Assembly (NCBI RefSeq): GCF_003725735.1
Contig: NZ_RJTM01000002.1
Coordinates: forward strand, 186,001 to 250,000
Direction: 5' to 3'
Length of the DNA: 64,000 bases
Origin: Sinomicrobium pectinilyticum
GTDB lineage: Bacteria > Bacteroidota > Bacteroidia > Flavobacteriales > Flavobacteriaceae
A program made the translations under genes and the position numbers. Below, in pieces: positions 33,368 through 41,532 of this stretch (position 1 is the first letter of the stretch; each line of letters opens with the position of its first letter). The notes under the pieces are model-generated. The model was not told the DNA's origin, made no database searches, and worked only from the letters and a program-made list of their open reading frames with translations.

Positions 33368-34978
33368 TTAAAAACTTAATCCCAATTCCTGAAAATACCC
33401 TGCAATTTCCATGTCCAACTCTGCACGTTGGGTCTCCAAGTTTTTTATCTCTGCCATTACTGTATCAATGTCAACTGGCTCTTCTTCCTCAAAAGTATCT
33501 ACATATCGAGGGATATTAAGGTTATAGTCATTTTCTTCAATTTCGGAAAGGTTCGCAACATAACTGTATTTATCTTCAGTTTTACGTTCTATATAAGTTT
33601 CAATAATTTTATCAATATCTTCTTGACGCAGTACATTTTGGGTTTTTACTTTTTCATAATGTTCACTGGCATCAATGAATAAAATATCATCCGGGTTTTC
33701 CCTACATTTTTTGAATACTAAAATGCAGGTGGGTATTCCCGTTCCATAAAAGATATTTGCAGGTAATCCAATTACAGCATCCAAATAGTTCTTCTCCTTA
33801 ATCAGATATTCTCTTATGTGTCCTTCGGCACTTCCTCTAAATAACACACCATGTGGTAAAACAATAGCCATAGTACCGTTTTCGTCAAGCTGATAGATCA
33901 TGTGCTGGACGAAAGCAAAATCCGCTTTACTTTTTGGTGCCAATTTCCCATATTGACTAAAGCGGTCATCACTCATAAAAAGTTGGTTGGCACTCCACTT
34001 GGCAGAAAATGGTGGATTGGCAACAATAGCTTCGAATCGGTGTTCTAAGTGTTGTGGATGTTCTAGGGTGTCTTCTTGTTTAATGTCAAACTTACGGTAA
34101 TGCACATCATGTAAAATCATATTCATACGTGCCAGATTGTAAGTAGTACGATTTAATTCCTGACCGTAAAAATTGTTGACTTCTTCTACTTCTTTGGCTA
34201 CACGTAACAATAAGGACCCACTACCACAAGTTGGGTCATATGCCGATTTCAGTTTCTTTTTACCGGCCGTTACCAATTTGGCTAAAACCATACTTACTTC
34301 CTGGGGTGTATAGAATTCTCCGGCTTTTTTACCGGCTCCACTTGCAAACTTTCCTATCAGGTATTCGTAAGCATCACCCAATACATCTAATTCTGTTTGC
34401 TCTAATTCAAAATCTATTTTATCTAGGTGTGCCAATACTTTGGCTATAATTCCGTTACGTGCCTCCGGTGTCTTTCCTAATTTGGTAGAGTTAAGATCCA
34501 TGTCCTCAAAGAGATTGTCAAAATCCTCCTCACTCTCAGTACCCATGGTGCTGTTTTGTACATTATTTAGGATTTTCTGTAGATCTTCTAAGATGAAATT
34601 GTGCTTGGTGTTATAGGTTTCTGTAGGTTCTGCTGCCTGACTTAAAGATTTTTCTTCTGTATTGTGATTCCCTCTTTTTGCAATGGCAGAAAACAATTCG
34701 GAAGGTTTTAAGAAGTAGCCCAATTTTTCTAAGGCCTCTTCTCTTATCGCTTGTATATAAGCCTGACCTTCCTCTGTGTTTTCGTCAATATCTGTAAATT
34801 TTATGCCATCCGGTTTTAAAATGGAATCGGCATATATTTCCATTTTCTCGGCCAAGTATTTATAGAAAATAAAGCCTAATATGTAATCGCGAAACTCATC
34901 GGCATTCATTTTGCCTCTGAGAGTATTCGCTATATTCCAGAGCTGCTGTTCGAGTTGTTTTTTGTGTTCTTCTGACAT
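33368..34978 (-). CDS. hsdM: Type I DNA methyltransferase subunit (536 aa)
   Basis: N6-adenine methylase subunit using S-adenosylmethionine. The N-terminal helical domain (LWNIANTLRGKMNADEFRDY) is followed by GEFYTPQEVS, SAM-binding motif I DPTCGSGSLLLRV near residue 245 and catalytic motif IV NPPF near 316 (VANPPFSAKWS). A long acidic C-terminus carries the coiled region that contacts HsdS. Full family length. Lies 7 bases downstream of abiEii, so the AbiE pair and the restriction genes appear to form one transcript. Confidence 0.96.
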   Translation of the reverse strand: MSEEHKKQLEQQLWNIANTLRGKMNADEFRDYILGFIFYKYLAEKMEIYADSILKPDGIKFTDIDENTEEGQAYIQAIREEALEKLGYFLKPSELFSAIAKRGNHNTEEKSLSQAAEPTETYNTKHNFILEDLQKILNNVQNSTMGTESEEDFDNLFEDMDLNSTKLGKTPEARNGIIAKVLAHLDKIDFELEQTELDVLGDAYEYLIGKFASGAGKKAGEFYTPQEVSMVLAKLVTAGKKKLKSAYDPTCGSGSLLLRVAKEVEEVNNFYGQELNRTTYNLARMNMILHDVHYRKFDIKQEDTLEHPQHLEHRFEAIVANPPFSAKWSANQLFMSDDRFSQYGKLAPKSKADFAFVQHMIYQLDENGTMAIVLPHGVLFRGSAEGHIREYLIKEKNYLDAVIGLPANIFYGTGIPTCILVFKKCRENPDDILFIDASEHYEKVKTQNVLRQEDIDKIIETYIERKTEDKYSYVANLSEIEENDYNLNIPRYVDTFEEEEPVDIDTVMAEIKNLETQRAELDMEIAGYFQELGLSF

Positions 34979-34985
34979 AAGTAGT

Positions 34986-35774
34986 TTATATTTTATCGAC
35001 TAATTCTTTTTTTATCCAGTCAAAAGCTGCCGACTGATCGTACTTTATTTCCGGTCGTAGTAAGGCCTCCATGTCTCCTTTAAAATCAGGGTCATTTTCT
35101 TTTTCTTCTAAATTCATTAGAAATTCTTTACTACTGGGAGATCTTCCAACAGCAAATTTCATATACTCTTTAAAGCAATTTAGAATCAAAGGATAATCAA
35201 GTTCTTTCTTTAACCTGGAATAGTCCAAATCAAAAAGATCCCTCCCTTTGTTGCGTTGGTATAATGCCCTGAGTTTGGTGCCTAACAGTTCTTGTATGTC
35301 ATAGGTGCGAATATTGGTCTTACCTTTAAACCAGTTACTATCCACTTCATAGGGAAATTCTACCCAGGGTAATATATTGAAGTGCTCTTTACAATTTATT
35401 TCAAGTTTTAATCGGAGTCTGATATTTTCATATTCCGAAGTAAACCTGTAGAATGCTTTTGCTCCATGTCCCCCTATTTTAGTGCTTCTTTTTTCCTCAA
35501 AAAAAGTGATTACTTCTCCCAAACGTTGCATTATTGGTTTTATAGGACCCGGTTTGATCTGAACGAGGTCTATATCTTCCGAATATCTGGGAGCAGGATT
35601 GAGATATAGTTTATGAAGAGCCGTACCTCCACGAAAGGCCAGATTCTCCCTAAGAAAATCATCAGAGAAAATTTCAATTAAGGTTCTACTTATTATAAGA
35701 TCTTGCTCAACTTGGGAAAATTCTTTCCAGGGGGCATTTATTTGCCATTTGGCTATTTCCGGTCTTGGAATCAT
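34986..35774 (-). CDS. abiEii: AbiEii-type nucleotidyltransferase toxin (262 aa)
   Basis: Toxin half of an AbiE (type IV-style) abortive-infection pair. The nucleotidyltransferase signature is complete: FRGGTALHKLY followed by RYSEDIDLVQ, giving the GG(x)L and DxD metal motifs near residues 47-70. Related enzymes modify tRNA or other targets with nucleotides to arrest growth during phage infection. The start codon overlaps the antitoxin stop by 4 bases (ATGA), a sign of translational coupling. Confidence 0.9.
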   Translation of the reverse strand: MIPRPEIAKWQINAPWKEFSQVEQDLIISRTLIEIFSDDFLRENLAFRGGTALHKLYLNPAPRYSEDIDLVQIKPGPIKPIMQRLGEVITFFEEKRSTKIGGHGAKAFYRFTSEYENIRLRLKLEINCKEHFNILPWVEFPYEVDSNWFKGKTNIRTYDIQELLGTKLRALYQRNKGRDLFDLDYSRLKKELDYPLILNCFKEYMKFAVGRSPSSKEFLMNLEEKENDPDFKGDMEALLRPEIKYDQSAAFDWIKKELVDKI

Positions 35775-36565
35775 AAGTCACTTTCAATTTTAATATTTAC
35801 ATCTACTCTCCATCTGTTATTTACTGCGCCTGCTTTTTGTTTGGGTTTGGGAGTTAATAATACCGGGTAAAATTTTTGATGTTTCAGATGTTCATAAATA
35901 AGTTCTGCTGACTCAGAATTGGGAGATAGTTCATCTAATAAAAATCCCAATCGTTGTAGTACACTTTTATGTGGATACCAGGACAATAGATCTTTTATAT
36001 CTGAAAGGGATATTTCTTCAATTAATTCTTCTATGACAGAAACCATTCTGTTTAATCCTCCTATTTTGGTTTGGTGATGGAGCAAATCAACGGCTGTGAG
36101 TCCAGGGCTGGATATTTTAAACATTCCAGCATCTCCTTTTCTTGACAAGATATTTTTTTGTGGCCAATTGGAAACAGTGAAAAAATCCAACTTTATTGTA
36201 TCTTTAGAAATAGATAATAGGGGAGATTTGTCATGCAATATATAATCTTTTTGAATCTGTTGATGGCTGGCTCCATAAAATTTAGCAGCAGAATATAAGC
36301 CTAAATAGTAATGTCTGTTTAGATAAGTAAATAATTTATCAATATAGAGTTCTATAGGTAATTTTCCAAGACGAGAGTATCGGGGAGGGATTATTAAATA
36401 AAAATGCTGCCTTAGAGGAATTATGTCTCCTTTGTTTATAGCATAAGACAATTCGCTCCTAATTGAAACGTCCGACTTATTTGTTTTGGCCTGAAGTAAT
36501 TCGTTCCAAGTAAAAGCGTATTCTTCAAAGGATAACCGCTCTTTTATAAAATCAGTGAAATTCAA
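35771..36565 (-). CDS. abiEi: AbiEi-type antitoxin/regulator (264 aa)
   Basis: Antitoxin partner. The N-terminus looks like a winged-helix region (FTWNELLQAKTNKSDVSIRSEL, then INKGDIIPLRQHFYLIIPPRY), followed by the AbiEi core (YYLGLYSAAKFYGASHQQIQ; ISSPGLTAVDLLHHQTKIGGLNR). Family members bind and repress their own promoter, expected just upstream around 36570-36650. First gene of the leftward run abiEi-abiEii-hsdM-hsdS. Confidence 0.87.
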   Translation of the reverse strand: MNFTDFIKERLSFEEYAFTWNELLQAKTNKSDVSIRSELSYAINKGDIIPLRQHFYLIIPPRYSRLGKLPIELYIDKLFTYLNRHYYLGLYSAAKFYGASHQQIQKDYILHDKSPLLSISKDTIKLDFFTVSNWPQKNILSRKGDAGMFKISSPGLTAVDLLHHQTKIGGLNRMVSVIEELIEEISLSDIKDLLSWYPHKSVLQRLGFLLDELSPNSESAELIYEHLKHQKFYPVLLTPKPKQKAGAVNNRWRVDVNIKIESDL

Positions 36566-36782: not shown

Positions 36783-37066
36783 GTCTAAACCGAGAAAATG
36801 TAAAGTAATATTCTGAGATTCCATTTTGTTGATGGATTTTCGTAGATAATTGGCTTTATGTCAACGTGTGGCCGCATCGAGTAGTTAAACGAAATTTGAA
36901 AGCTCCTGTTGCTGAAGTTTCCTCTTTCTCCGAGGTGGACTTGTAGTTGGAGATAAAAGAAGATTAATTTTGAAAATTCAGAACTTGAGATCAACGGAAA
37001 ATGTTATAAACGCGTTTTTACGGAAGATACTTGTTTTCGTTTTACTTAAACGAGCGTCAGCGAGGT

Positions 37067-37342
37067 TTATTTCTTCTCTAATTCTTTGATGTACTTATCT
37101 ACATTAATTTCTAACTCAAGTAGAGTTATTGTCTTTAAATCCAATGCCTTGGCTAAAAGAATCAATTTATCTAAGGTAGGATTAGCTTCTCCTCTTTCAA
37201 CAGTCCCTATGAAGAATTTGGTTAAACCGGTATTACTGTCAGCGAGTTCTTGTTGGGAAATATGTTCTTTATCATACTCTTTACTTGGAATTCTTTCCCT
37301 AAGTTTTAATAAATACTTCCCAAGTTTTTCCTTTTCTGTCAC
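37067..37342 (-). CDS. XRE-family helix-turn-helix protein (91 aa)
   Basis: Small Cro/CI-type DNA-binding protein. The helix-turn-helix covers ~8-70: LRERIPSKEYDKEHISQQELADSN as the first part (shown here only by its ends LRERIPS and QQELADS), then FFIGTVERGEANPTLDKLIL, the recognition helix and turn typical of XRE. It stands alone, divergent from the leader of the sigma-dCas12f operon 84 bases away, so it might regulate that promoter. An orphan antitoxin is the alternative. Confidence 0.85.
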   Translation of the reverse strand: MTEKEKLGKYLLKLRERIPSKEYDKEHISQQELADSNTGLTKFFIGTVERGEANPTLDKLILLAKALDLKTITLLELEINVDKYIKELEKK

Positions 37343-37425
37343 TCTTATTTTATTTTAATCAATAAATTTCTTACTTATCCTAAAAAATAATGGTATGATA
37401 TATCTTACCGTTTATAGTTTTTTAT

Positions 37426-37433
37426 TATATTTG
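37426..37433 (+). promoter_or_regulatory. Putative -7 box upstream of the sigma-dCas12f leader (TATATTTG)
   Basis: TATATTTG matches TAnnTTTG and points rightward, giving a start near 37440 and a ~330-base leader that contains the structured RNA at 37497-37607 before the sigma gene. No clear -33 TTG at ideal spacing. Confidence 0.45.
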
Positions 37434-37496
37434 TATGGATTAACATAAATTTGCAATTCTTCAAATAGAAAATATTGGAAGCAATTGCTTTGAATC

Positions 37497-37626
37497 TCGA
37501 ACGGAAAACTGGCACTTTTCATTTACAGCGAGAGGATAAGTAAGATTGCTCACGACCCGGGCGTGGGCTCTTTTATCGCTGTAAGGTATGCCAGTACCCC
37601 TGTTCGATAAGTAGAGTTCCACGCCC
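37497..37626 (+). ncRNA. Structured leader RNA, candidate guide RNA of the dCas12f system (copy A)
   Basis: Three nested helices: TCGAAC/GTTCGA (37497-37502/37602-37607), ACTGGCA/TGCCAGT (37508-37514/37589-37595) and TTACAGCGA/TCGCTGTAA (37523-37531/37576-37584). Inside are AGAG/CTCT (37531-37534/37568-37571) and a GCTCACG/CGTGGGC hairpin. A competing fold pairs GGGCGTGG (37559-37566) with CCACGCCC (37619-37626) and TTATCG with CGATAA. The core AGAGG ... GCGTGGGCTCTTTTAT recurs in copy B after dCas12f with a wholly different closing stem. Function is inferred; a riboswitch-like leader is the alternative. The rest of 37343-37770 has no gene. Confidence 0.5.
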
Positions 37627-37770
37627 ATCCATTTTCTATCATGGGCTTTCTCAATAACTCTTCTTCTCCAAAGCAAAGGTTTCTGCATATGATCACTATG
37701 AAGTCTTGCAAGGGAATTCTTTTGCCCTAAGTATTCCCAAAAAAAAACTATTTGCAAAACTTTATACCCT

Positions 37771-38577
37771 ATGAAAAGTATAAACAATCCCCTTCCAAAG
37801 TATTTTGAATTATTAAAAAATGGCGACCCTGCCGCTTTAGAACAAATTTATGCGCAATATCGCGGAATCATCTTTTGGATCGGTAATCGAATGCTAAAGG
37901 ACCATTTCGTAGTAGAATCCCTGGTCCAGGATACTTTTTTAAAGTTATGGGTGCTCAGGGACAGGATAGAAAGACCTGAGCATATTCTCTATTTCTTAAA
38001 GTTTGTGATGAGAAGGGAATGTATTTCGTACTACACCAAACCCAGGAATAAGTTTTTCAGGAAAGTCAATTCGTTAGAGGACTACGACAATTACCAGGAC
38101 TATATGGCGGGGTACGATCCTGCAAGTGTGTCTGAAAACCTGGAAGACCAGGAGTCTAAGCAAACGGCCTTCGACCGGGTCAAAAGCATATTGCCCCTGC
38201 TTAATGCAGAAAGAAGGCATTTAATTGAACTCTGCTTAAAATACGGCTTTCGGTATAAAGCCATAGCCAAAGCTATGGGAAAAGGGATCACCGAAACCAG
38301 CAACGAGGTAAAGCGGGCTATCCAGGACATTAAAACCATCGTCCATCACGGAAGTACACATGCGAATGAGCAAAAATCCCCTGTTAATGCTGTAAAGGCT
38401 CCGAATGTAATGTCCCAGGAACAGGAAATGGTATTGGAACTCAGATGCAACAAGAAGTATTCCTTTGCATTGATTGCCGAAGAGTTGAACTTGTCCCAAA
38501 AAGAAGTTCACAAAGAATTTGTAGCCGCATATAAACTCATGCAAGAGAAGCATAATCTACAATTAGAATCTGCTTAG
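37771..38577 (+). CDS. ECF-type RNA polymerase sigma factor linked to dCas12f (268 aa)
   Basis: Sigma-70 family factor of the extracytoplasmic-function group. Region 2 spans ~15-90 ([34 protein letters not shown]), region 4 spans ~133-190 ([39 protein letters not shown]). Unlike ordinary ECF factors it has ~75 extra residues with a second helix-turn-helix-like segment ([20 protein letters not shown], ~230-250), perhaps the contact to its partner. No anti-sigma gene is adjacent. Its stop is one base before the ATG of the dCas12f gene, so the two are co-translated. I infer recruitment of RNA polymerase to RNA-specified sites. Confidence 0.88.
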
Positions 38578-38578
38578 T

Positions 38579-39676
38579 ATGGAAAAGTCTACCCTGAAAC
38601 TCACCCGAAAGATCCAGTTACTGGTTGATCTACCTACTAAAGAAGAACGGAAGGAAAAACTGGATAAGCTCTACCAGTGGCAGAACCGATGTTTTAGAGC
38701 GGCTAACCTTATTGTTTCCCATTTGTATGTACAGGAAATGATCAAGGAGTTCTTTTATTTGTCCGATGGCATAAAGTACAAACTGTCCGACGAAAAAAAA
38801 GACGAGCAAGGAATCTTGCAACGCTCCCGTATCAATACGACCTATCGCGTGGTATCAGATCGCTTTAAAGGGGACATCCCTACGAACATATTGTCCAACC
38901 TGAATAGGACCTTGATCGCCTCCTTTAACAAAAACAAGCCCGAATACTGGAAAGGCGAACGCTCGCTAAAGAACTTTAGAAAGGACATGGCTTTTCCCTT
39001 TGGCCCCGAGTGCCTTAGCGGATTATCCTTTAAAACGGAGAAACAGGTCTTTTGCTTTCGTTTGTTCCAAATTCCCTTTCGTACTTACCTGAGAAAAGAT
39101 TACACCGACAAACGAAGACTATTGGAGCGGGTGATAAAAGGGGAGACCAAACTTTGTACTTCCCATATCAAACTAAAGGATGGCAAAATCTTCTGGCTGC
39201 CTGTTTTTGAAATTGAAAAAGAAAAACATGGCCTAAGACCGGAAGTGATAGCGGAGGCTTCTTTGTCCCTTGAATATCCCATTGTAGTGAAGACTGCTAA
39301 CACCAGGCTTACCATTGGCACCAAGGAAGAGTTCCTGTACAGAAGATTGGCCATACAGGCGGCCCTGAAAAGGGCACAGATCGGGGCGACCCATTCCAGA
39401 TCGGGCAAAGGGGCAGAAAGAAAATTAAAGGCCGTGAACAAACTCCGCAGTGCAGAAAGTAATTATGTGCATCATCGTATACACATATACAGCAGGAGAT
39501 TGATCGATTTTTGTATTAAACATCAGGCAGGAACGCTCATTTTATTAAATCAGGAGGACAAGATCGGGATCGCTAAGGAGGAAGAATTTGTATTGCGAAA
39601 CTGGAGTTATTATGAACTCATGGCAAAAATAAAGTACAAAGCCGAGAAAGCTGGTATTGAACTCATCACAGACTAA
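38579..39676 (+). CDS. Nuclease-dead Cas12f/TnpB-like protein (365 aa)
   Basis: RNA-guided DNA-binding protein that seems to have lost cleavage. The C-terminal half aligns by eye with TnpB/Cas12f: beta-strand block ASLSLEYPIVV (~227-237) where RuvC-I has GIDLG, a basic helix pair (~255-300), QAGTLILLNQED (~316-327) where RuvC-II has TIVIEDL, and WSYYELMAKIKYKAEKAGIE (342-361), the hallmark helix before the zinc ribbon. The first Asp reads Ser, the second-site Glu reads Leu (L323), and the protein stops at ELITD, so the zinc ribbon and third acidic residue are missing. The N-terminal ~210 residues would be wedge/REC. No TnpA transposase is nearby. Confidence 0.85.
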   Translation: MEKSTLKLTRKIQLLVDLPTKEERKEKLDKLYQWQNRCFRAANLIVSHLYVQEMIKEFFYLSDGIKYKLSDEKKDEQGILQRSRINTTYRVVSDRFKGDIPTNILSNLNRTLIASFNKNKPEYWKGERSLKNFRKDMAFPFGPECLSGLSFKTEKQVFCFRLFQIPFRTYLRKDYTDKRRLLERVIKGETKLCTSHIKLKDGKIFWLPVFEIEKEKHGLRPEVIAEASLSLEYPIVVKTANTRLTIGTKEEFLYRRLAIQAALKRAQIGATHSRSGKGAERKLKAVNKLRSAESNYVHHRIHIYSRRLIDFCIKHQAGTLILLNQEDKIGIAKEEEFVLRNWSYYELMAKIKYKAEKAGIELITD

Positions 39677-39677
39677 G

Positions 39678-39800
39678 AGGTCTATAGAGGGTGCTTGTAC
39701 ACCCGTAAGGTGAGGTCAATGACACTCACTAAATACGAACAGTATATACAACGCGTGGGCTCTCTTATTTTATAGACCTAAATTTCCAGATAAAACAAAG
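39678..39800 (+). ncRNA. Structured RNA directly after dCas12f, candidate guide RNA (copy B)
   Basis: The closing stem AGGTCTATA/TATAGACCT (39678-39686/39771-39779) starts one base after the dCas12f stop, as omega RNAs do at tnpB ends. Inside are AGAG/CTCT, hairpins GGGTG/CACCC (39690-39704) and GTGAG/CTCAC (39710-39729), and GCGTGGGCTCTCTTAT (39753-39768), matching copy A at 37561-37576 apart from one base. Sequence after the stem (39780 on) is unlike copy A and could be the guide. A further hairpin TGGCC/GGCCA lies at 39804-39846. Role inferred. Confidence 0.5.
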
Positions 39801-40342: not shown

Positions 40343-41218
40343 TTAATATCCTATTTCAAAGCCTGTGTCTCTTACTCTTTTAGCTACTTGTTTGGCCAAT
40401 TCTTTGGTTACTTTTGCTGCCATATTTCCGCTAATCTCCACGGCTTTTCCCATCAGGCTTACCTGATTGTTTTGCATTAGCTTCTGTCCGAACCGTTGAT
40501 TACGGGATAAGGCCAGGCCTAACTTTGCCCCGGACATCTCCCGGTGTACTTCGCTACCTTTCAGGTTATGGTTCTTGTACTGAAACCGGAAACCCTGTAA
40601 CTGGTTTTGCTTATTGATAGTTGGGATTACTGAAACCCGTTGCCGTTTCATCAGGGTGATGTACTCATCAAAACTTTTCGGTCTGTGTTGCTGTATGATC
40701 CGGTCGTGTATCTGTTTAATCTCTCTCCGGATGTGTTTCAGGGATTGAGTCTTGCTCTGCTGTACCTCTTTAACTGTGGTAAGTTGTAATTGCTGTGCAG
40801 TTCTTTCGGCAGCCCTCTGGCTGCGTTTGCCAATATAGTTGTCTTTATAGGCCTTCCCCTGAAAATCAATCCGGTTCACATACAGATGAATATGGGTGTG
40901 TGCCTTATTTCGGTGCACAAAGGCAATGGCTTGTCGCTCCCCCAATTCCATTTCTTTCATAAAGGTATCGGTGAGTTCCTCCAGGTCTTCCCGGCTTAGG
41001 GTCCTGCCGTCTTCGATAGTGGGACTAAGCACAAAACTTAAAGTATTCTTTTCACAACGAACATTCATTTGCTGTATCATTTGAAATTCTTTAGTGACTT
41101 CTTTCGGGTTCTCTCCGCAGAGGTTTTGGGTATAGACAATTTCGGCATTCTTTTCCTGGTTCCATCCGTATTGCATGGAAGCCCGGGTATGTGCTATGGA
41201 TTTGCCTTTACCTATCAT
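40343..41218 (-). CDS. Relaxase/mobilization nuclease (291 aa)
   Basis: DNA-nicking relaxase that would cut at oriT and lead the strand into a recipient. The MOB family metal motif is the three-histidine HTHIH (H107, H109, H111) in KAHTHIHLYVNRID. The N-terminal MIGKGKSIAHTRASMQYGWN region is typical of the Bacteroidota MobA/MobB relaxases and probably holds the early catalytic residues. The C-terminal ~110 residues are basic and DNA-binding-like. Its start overlaps the mobC stop by 4 bases. With no type IV secretion genes in the island, transfer would need a helper element. Confidence 0.9.
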   Translation of the reverse strand: MIGKGKSIAHTRASMQYGWNQEKNAEIVYTQNLCGENPKEVTKEFQMIQQMNVRCEKNTLSFVLSPTIEDGRTLSREDLEELTDTFMKEMELGERQAIAFVHRNKAHTHIHLYVNRIDFQGKAYKDNYIGKRSQRAAERTAQQLQLTTVKEVQQSKTQSLKHIRREIKQIHDRIIQQHRPKSFDEYITLMKRQRVSVIPTINKQNQLQGFRFQYKNHNLKGSEVHREMSGAKLGLALSRNQRFGQKLMQNNQVSLMGKAVEISGNMAAKVTKELAKQVAKRVRDTGFEIGY

Positions 41219-41532
41219 TTTTTAAAATTATACAGGTGTGTTTTTATCTCACGGGCTAATTGTATGACTTCATCGGACAGTTTTGGGTTTTGTTTGCGGA
41301 ACATATTGGCAATACGTTTAAAGTTGTTGTGATACCGCACCAGCATTTTATAGGCATCCAGTTGTTCTTCGGTTAACCGTTCTACGATTCGGTCTTCCAT
41401 AACAGCCCTCCGACAATAAGCACTTATACTCAAACCGGCTCTTTTGGCTTTGACATACAGCAACTTTTTTTCGTACTGTGTGCAGCGAAATTTGATATAC
41501 GTGCTTTTGTTATGTTTGCTTTTTCGTACCAA
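41215..41532 (-). CDS. mobC: MobC-like relaxosome accessory protein (105 aa)
   Basis: Ribbon-helix-helix-type accessory factor that binds oriT beside the relaxase. YIKFRCTQYEKKLLYVKAKR followed by AGLSISAYCRRAVM is the typical RHH portion of plasmid MobC proteins, and the rest is helical (YHNNFKRIANMFRKQNPKLS). No ATG is available; TTG at 41532 (reading MVRKSKHNKS) is the only early start because a stop lies seven codons upstream. It overlaps the relaxase start by 4 bases. Confidence 0.86.
   Translation of the reverse strand: MVRKSKHNKSTYIKFRCTQYEKKLLYVKAKRAGLSISAYCRRAVMEDRIVERLTEEQLDAYKMLVRYHNNFKRIANMFRKQNPKLSDEVIQLAREIKTHLYNFKK

Follow-up and report, generated by a model that had tools for sequence, protein, structure and literature searches.

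The guide RNA that accompanies a sigma factor and a nuclease-dead Cas12f (dCas12f) in Sinomicrobium pectinilyticum appears, judging from the letters of guide and genome, to point at a widespread hairpin-forming leader, which stands before the pair's own genes and before nutrient-uptake genes. The genes lie in a stretch of 64,000 nucleotides that was analysed as a whole and is called the window here (Table 1). The protein pair is already known; the surprise lies in the target element and in its logic. No description of native targets, of self-targeting or of a link to leader RNA was found in the literature searched, the founding papers on such pairs being outside its reach, and novelty is unproven.

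Table 1. Features of the sigma-dCas12f locus and its surroundings (positions in the window)
Feature	Position	Strand	Basis
AbiE pair and HsdM	33368-36565		
91-aa divergent HTH_3 (Cro/CI-type) regulator	37067..37342	-	Pfam HTH_3 7.4e-6; start 149 nt from element
Imperfect palindrome GGTATGATATATCTTACC, candidate operator for the divergent HTH regulator	37392..37409	.	by eye
-7 promoter box TAAATTTG	37446..37453	+	45 nt 5' of element
Structured leader element	37491..37633	+	model R1, 151.9 bits (window copy part of the model's alignment)
5' arm of alternative terminator-like hairpin	37559..37577	+	second fold
5'-G target-adjacent base	37560	+	sequence, genome search
Guide target, 1 mismatch in 16	37561..37576	+	repeat and genome search
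3' arm of terminator-like hairpin	37606..37626	+	second fold; TTTT near end in relatives
ECF sigma factor, 268 aa, with extra region-4-like C-terminal HTH	37771..38577	+	ORF, domains, PDB 9n9q_C 9.3e-110
Nuclease-dead Cas12f, 365 aa	38579..39676	+	ORF, NCBIfam, PDB 9n9c 3e-193
Guide-RNA scaffold ending ATATACAAC	39687..39752	+	conserved in locus alignment; fold of 39660-39800
Guide GCGTGGGCTCTCTTAT	39753..39768	+	directly after scaffold, where loci diverge; 3' end judged from target match
MobA-type relaxase and NikA genes	40343-41532		

The protein pair

An earlier sequence-only reading of this DNA had described a sigma factor and a TnpB/Cas12f-like protein in two reading frames one base apart, and this arrangement is confirmed, with the sigma stop at 38577 and the dCas12f ATG at 38579. 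The sigma regions 2 and 4 that it had named are found as Sigma70_r2 (residues 27-90) and TIGR02937 (residues 22-189), and its extra C-terminal helix-turn-helix is a separate segment, residues 214-255, matching Sigma70_r4_2. For the 365-aa protein, the proposed likeness to TnpB/Cas12f is supported by the NCBIfam profile guided_TnpB, with an E-value of 2.8e-15 and a match that falls short of the curated cut-off and ends at profile position 338 of 389, and by Cas12f matches in the PDB; the Pfam profile search gave nothing above its cut-off for this protein. The PDB entry named "Nuclease-deactivated Cas12f", 9n9c, is matched over residues 1-363, and the same dCas12f occurs in 9n9m, 9n9o and 9n9q. 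The sigma factor in turn matches the "RpoE" chain 9n9q_C over residues 11-268. Since both proteins match one set of structures nearly over their full length, the pair is, by sequence, a member of the already known dCas12f-sigma-E family. Guide-RNA-dependent recruitment of RNA polymerase, with a start site set by distance, is a feature of dCas12f-sigma-E systems, and such pairs reportedly act as RNA-guided transcription systems with a 5'-G target motif. The earlier proposal of an RNA-guided transcription pair is supported by the PDB partner matches, together with the conserved scaffold and the 5'-G targets described below.

The protein resembles the Cas12f nucleases (9nzr, 9nzo) and TnpB over residues 85-362. 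In the alignment with the nuclease 9nzr (9.5e-38 among the PDB sequences), the D of VDLG is replaced by S and the E of QMER by L, positions which we take to be RuvC acids, and the alignment stops at residue 416 of 508. The loss of the RuvC site and the missing zinc ribbon and third RuvC motif had both been claimed before and are borne out by this alignment, the missing C-terminal end being presumably the zinc-ribbon and third-RuvC part. Unlike a CRISPR-Cas12f nuclease, the window protein therefore does not keep an intact RuvC site, its RuvC acids and C-terminal end being gone.

The guide RNA

A predicted guide-RNA gene adjoins the dCas12f gene, scaffold and guide following its stop codon. The scaffold, GAGGGTGCTTGTACACCC...ATATACAAC, is conserved 3' of the dCas12f stop codon, and the subsequent bases vary among loci (alignment A2, 31 rows, among which L078 does not align). 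The fold of 39660-39800 is better than those of all 200 shuffled sequences (z -3.14). A 94% repeat links position 39753 with position 37561, upstream of the sigma gene. A second guide-RNA gene at 37561 was considered and rejected, as the bases that the two places share in an 80-locus alignment are guide and not scaffold; the site at 37561 is therefore read as a target.

The arrangement of scaffolds varies among related loci. An extra scaffold copy is found between the sigma and dCas12f genes of Sinomicrobium sp. N-1-3-6 (L045:5892-5956), followed by bases unlike the element. Multiple scaffold-guide units, four and six as parsed, lie behind a single dCas12f gene downstream of 7092 in L085 and, likewise downstream of 7092, in L084. 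A pattern that looks by eye like a miniature array is seen in L068 (after 6722) and L057 (7170-7240), where only the 3' part of the scaffold is repeated, in short copies, ahead of a second guide.

Guide targets in the host genome

The host assembly (5.65 Mb, with the window on contig C32) was searched for G followed by the 16 guide letters. With up to three mismatches, 14 places were found vs 11 for the reversed control, so that three-mismatch matches are at chance level. The seven matches with zero to two mismatches are the guide-RNA gene, five copies of the leader element and one position inside a long ORF (C133:54517). All five copies of the element detected in this genome carry the 5'-G, four with zero or one mismatch to the guide and the fifth with two. 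A search with a 22-letter core of the element, allowing three mismatches, returned the same five sites, all without mismatch, and none in the control.

Regarding the genes that follow, the ATG of the sigma gene is located 211 nt past the 5'-G of the target in the pair's own operon. The target on contig C134 is exact; its element core stands about 520 nt ahead of a SusC ORF, which SusD follows, as confirmed by Pfam. The element on C133 is followed after 697 nt by the ORF of an ECF sigma factor and then by FecR and a TonB receptor, and the elements on C162 and C213, two of the five targets, run into contig ends. A 5'-G target site is accordingly found upstream of a gene, the 5'-G rule itself being the one reported for the family.

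The leader element

The element is about 142 nt long. In an alignment of 35 copies, five from the host genome and the others from dCas12f loci, 42 columns are invariant. Two folds were derived from this alignment, and their pairs were counted on the same alignment. The first, given by RNAalifold, is a single long nested hairpin with compensatory changes in 15 of 33 pairs; 94.3% of its cells are paired and two-sided changes number 112 vs 35 after shuffling, its pair types being no higher than in shuffled alignments (35 vs 35.5). The second fold, in which columns 76-95 pair with columns 130-150, is incompatible with the first; its paired cells amount to 99.2%, and its two-sided changes number 12 vs 2.6 after shuffling. 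Within the alignment from which they were derived, the element therefore has two mutually exclusive folds with compensatory changes, as an attenuator would. TTTT is found around the end of 97 of 103 elements, on account of which the second fold resembles an intrinsic terminator, and the guide corresponds to its 5' arm. The terminator tail of the window copy (CCATCC, then T-rich) is weaker than those of its relatives, and segment 37500-37620 taken alone folds modestly better than chance (z -2.12; 11 of 200 shuffles equally good). The element is similar to attenuators and riboswitch-like leaders in its -7 box, its two exclusive folds and its terminator-like end, and differs from them in the divergent small gene beside it, in the possible action of an RNA-guided factor on its DNA and in lacking any Rfam counterpart at E up to 1 over the stretches that were searched.

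The surroundings were read in 104 element records, two of which are one element and which form a subset of the rows of the family search. In 93 of the 104, the 450 nt upstream contain the start of an ORF that runs on the opposite strand and has at least 65 aa; one such ORF has 599 aa and the rest at most 175 aa. Three of the four divergent ORFs tested by Pfam are HTH_3, the remaining one, of 121 aa, giving no Pfam match. The lowest-scoring element records of the family are mostly without the divergent small ORF, and in one congener (L162:4386-5165) two units of divergent ORF plus element stand in tandem, 636 nt apart. The motif TAnnTTTG, the flavobacterial -7 box consensus according to PMC9723704, occurs within 160 nt upstream of 92 of the 104 elements vs a mean of 15 after mononucleotide shuffling, with a peak 45-46 nt before the element; it is a candidate for the leader's own promoter. 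In addition, exact palindromes with arms of at least 8 are present in 38 of 104 records vs 6.9 after mononucleotide shuffling, many of them centred near -88; the window palindrome lies outside the set of records with exact arms of at least 7. The genes behind the elements, judged by eye apart from those with a Pfam result, are sigma-dCas12f pairs, SusC-like receptors, proteins of about 110 aa and a HEPN-like protein. The family of about 110 aa stands behind the element in two genomes of a single genus (G019 and G248; loci include L168, L170, L171, L172 and L173), and its one tested member, of 111 aa, has no Pfam match.

Guides and elements across loci

The relation of guide and element was followed in 81 loci, 80 related ones and the window. 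The guide parser is lax and yields false guides, so that the 77 loci with a parsed guide are an upper figure. In 46 of the 81 the guide is within two mismatches in 12 of the element consensus (51 at three mismatches, 37 at one). Forty loci have both a parsed guide and an element nearby, and in 19 of them the two match at up to two mismatches in 14, all with the 5'-G; guides shuffled for the same 40 loci matched in 0.065 loci on average and in one at most over 200 rounds. In the other 21 loci the guide falls short of this threshold against the local element, and several of these guides are unrelated to it.

Guides fit their own elements no better than those of other loci. Two permutations, with guides picked solely by likeness to the element consensus, gave own-element totals of 51 vs a permuted mean of 55.2 (P 0.17, n=26) and of 125 vs 132.8 (P 0.09, n=40), neither of them a significant own-fit. 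A further permutation, 57 vs 73.8 with 0 of 1000 rounds as extreme, was withdrawn, guides and loci having been selected in it by their match to the own element. Because the permutations are not significant, the match is read as the encounter of a guide and an element that are each conserved, and not as pairwise co-variation. Nine genomes were comparable. In G254, G125, G063 and G094 one or more of the elements read differ from a guide in no more than one letter of 14, and no guide lies within one mismatch of any element read in G144 (four guides), G309, G301, G100 and G380; the comparison excludes G266, G370, G322, G257 and G031, which have no parsed guide, and the lines for G329, which set guides of L084 against elements of another genome. 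Elements with zero or one mismatch to the window guide make up 17 of 37 in genomes with dCas12f vs 47 of 66 in genomes without it. A sharpening of the element by dCas12f is not visible, the fit to the window guide being rarer in dCas12f genomes, and the 47 well-matching elements without dCas12f mean that ready-made targets exist.

A relative with a different guide

The closest comparison is the pair of Allomuricauda (Flagellimonas) taeanensis in PDB 9n9c, 9n9m, 9n9o and 9n9q, both proteins of which resemble those of the window nearly end to end. Over its first 102 residues the PDB dCas12f chain equals locus L049 from this species, and 282 of 365 aligned columns are identical between window dCas12f and L049. 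The pairs are also alike in the scaffold and in the presence of a SusC-like leader that carries a 5'-G site. Their guides differ, that of the window pointing to the leader element and its own operon and that of A. taeanensis to a second site, lower down in the leader. This latter guide, TTGTGGGATATACGC, is mismatched in 4 of 14 positions at best to the element of its own operon. Its best 5'-G site outside guide-RNA genes (G397:C14:11182) has one mismatch, lies about 186 nt after an R1 element and precedes by 263 nt a gene that is SusC-like by eye; A. abyssi has two exact sites, likewise before genes that are SusC-like by eye. A search with 19 letters of the guide returned mostly guide-RNA genes, and with 15 letters and two mismatches the totals were 13 vs 12 in the control for G397, 14 vs 12 for G398 and 17 vs 14 for G399. 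The totals being near the control, the sites in A. taeanensis and A. abyssi are identified by their position; in G398 the best site besides the guide-RNA gene is in a coding region. All three sites of this second type have an R1 element upstream in the same leader (131.6-146.3 bits). A complementary arm, TCCCACAA, is found 48-49 nt past the guide site in A. taeanensis and A. abyssi, and the hairpin that contains it is part of the best fold in two of the three sites, L248 being the exception. Two different guides would thus address one kind of leader.

Distribution and mobility

A dCas12f match at E up to 1e-40 is present in 19 of 397 genomes of the family, the host included; two of these matches are incomplete (G266 and G378), one with internal stops. 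The element, at E up to 1e-6, is present in 68 of the 397. Comparison of the two lists places it in 18 of the 19 dCas12f genomes, G378 being the exception. When the 50 further element genomes were searched again, with E up to 1e-5, 49 lacked dCas12f and the last had a 52-residue piece. In a sample of the class, 39 of 295 genomes have the element, counting the host and five other genomes of the family; matches outside the family (for example L280 and L282) are mostly lower-scoring distant relatives. The element is older or wider in spread than dCas12f, which seems to have joined a pre-existing element family. As it is found without dCas12f, the element has another primary use.

The sequence-only reading had placed the pair on a mobile island. 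The relaxase and NikA genes nearby agree with this, as does a matching relaxase, variably placed, in the flanks of about 6 kb of 12 of 64 related full-length dCas12f loci. In L024 the block 37045-39794 is kept as a unit, with the relaxase on the opposite side. On the other side of the locus in the window, an AbiEi/AbiEii toxin-antitoxin pair at 34986-36565 adjoins HsdM. The further idea, that a mobile copy could rewire host genes, finds some support in a congener in which dCas12f was undetected (G297), whose genome has five elements, three of them exact over 16 nt.

A proposed circuit at the leader

We favour, with modest confidence, the reading that the pair is an activator which, led by its guide RNA, initiates transcription beyond an attenuator and feeds back positively on itself. 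A complex of dCas12f, guide RNA and sigma factor, with a guide of about 16 nt, would act at the leader elements. It would open an R-loop next to the 5'-G on the 5' arm of the terminator, within a leader with a putative promoter of its own, and the sigma factor would bring RNA polymerase, so that transcription would start downstream of that arm. A transcript that starts past the 5' arm would therefore be unable to form the terminator. The targets would be the pair's own operon, giving the positive feedback, the SusC-SusD operon and the three other elements of the genome. We infer RNA and DNA binding, recruitment of sigma factor and RNA polymerase, and activation by analogy with the A. taeanensis pair, which is reportedly active in transcription. 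Activation by bypass of the attenuator is our own deduction for this locus, drawn because the sigma factor of that relative reportedly recruits RNA polymerase.

It is unlikely, on balance, that a known activator uses these sites as mere conserved intergenic DNA, the leader fold being irrelevant to the RNA-guided step. Such a reading would accommodate the 49 element genomes without detected dCas12f, the other guides at many dCas12f loci, the lack of detectable co-variation of guide and own element, and a relative in A. taeanensis that targets another leader sequence; against it, a complementary arm begins about 46-49 nt past the target in the window as in A. taeanensis, a regularity tempered by the absence of the L248 hairpin from the best fold. 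A role of the complex mainly as a roadblock, with the R-loop in the leader stopping polymerase from the upstream promoter and thus closing a negative feedback, we regard as improbable. The target does lie downstream of the conserved -7 box, within the presumed transcript, and according to PMC13418256 the TnpB-derived TldR proteins, which are likewise nuclease-dead RNA-guided regulators on mobile DNA, are repressors. The partner in the window is a sigma factor, encoded one base from dCas12f and co-deposited with it in one structure, which argues against a roadblock. TldR is not known to have a sigma partner, and the window system as proposed here would differ from TldR, which represses. Finally, that the likeness of guide-RNA 3' end and element reflects copying without a working guide, or that the element RNA is a sponge for the guide RNA, with which its 3' arm could pair to judge from the pairing of the arms, is very improbable, given that the bases after the scaffold vary among loci and that an unrelated guide also has 5'-G sites in leaders.

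Returning to activation past the attenuator, we tentatively propose a wider picture, which may prove to go too far. The pair would be a mobilisable sigma module with a near-universal guide for pre-existing attenuator leaders, most of them accompanied by a divergent small gene. On entering a new flavobacterium it would find ready targets, initiate transcription beyond the first arm of the terminator and in this way override attenuation at SusCD operons, and sustain itself through its own leader. The five sites within one genome are concrete candidate targets. If the proposal is true, RNA-guided transcription and transcription attenuation would be joined in one circuit, and a single small module, once acquired, would rewire the genes of nutrient uptake.
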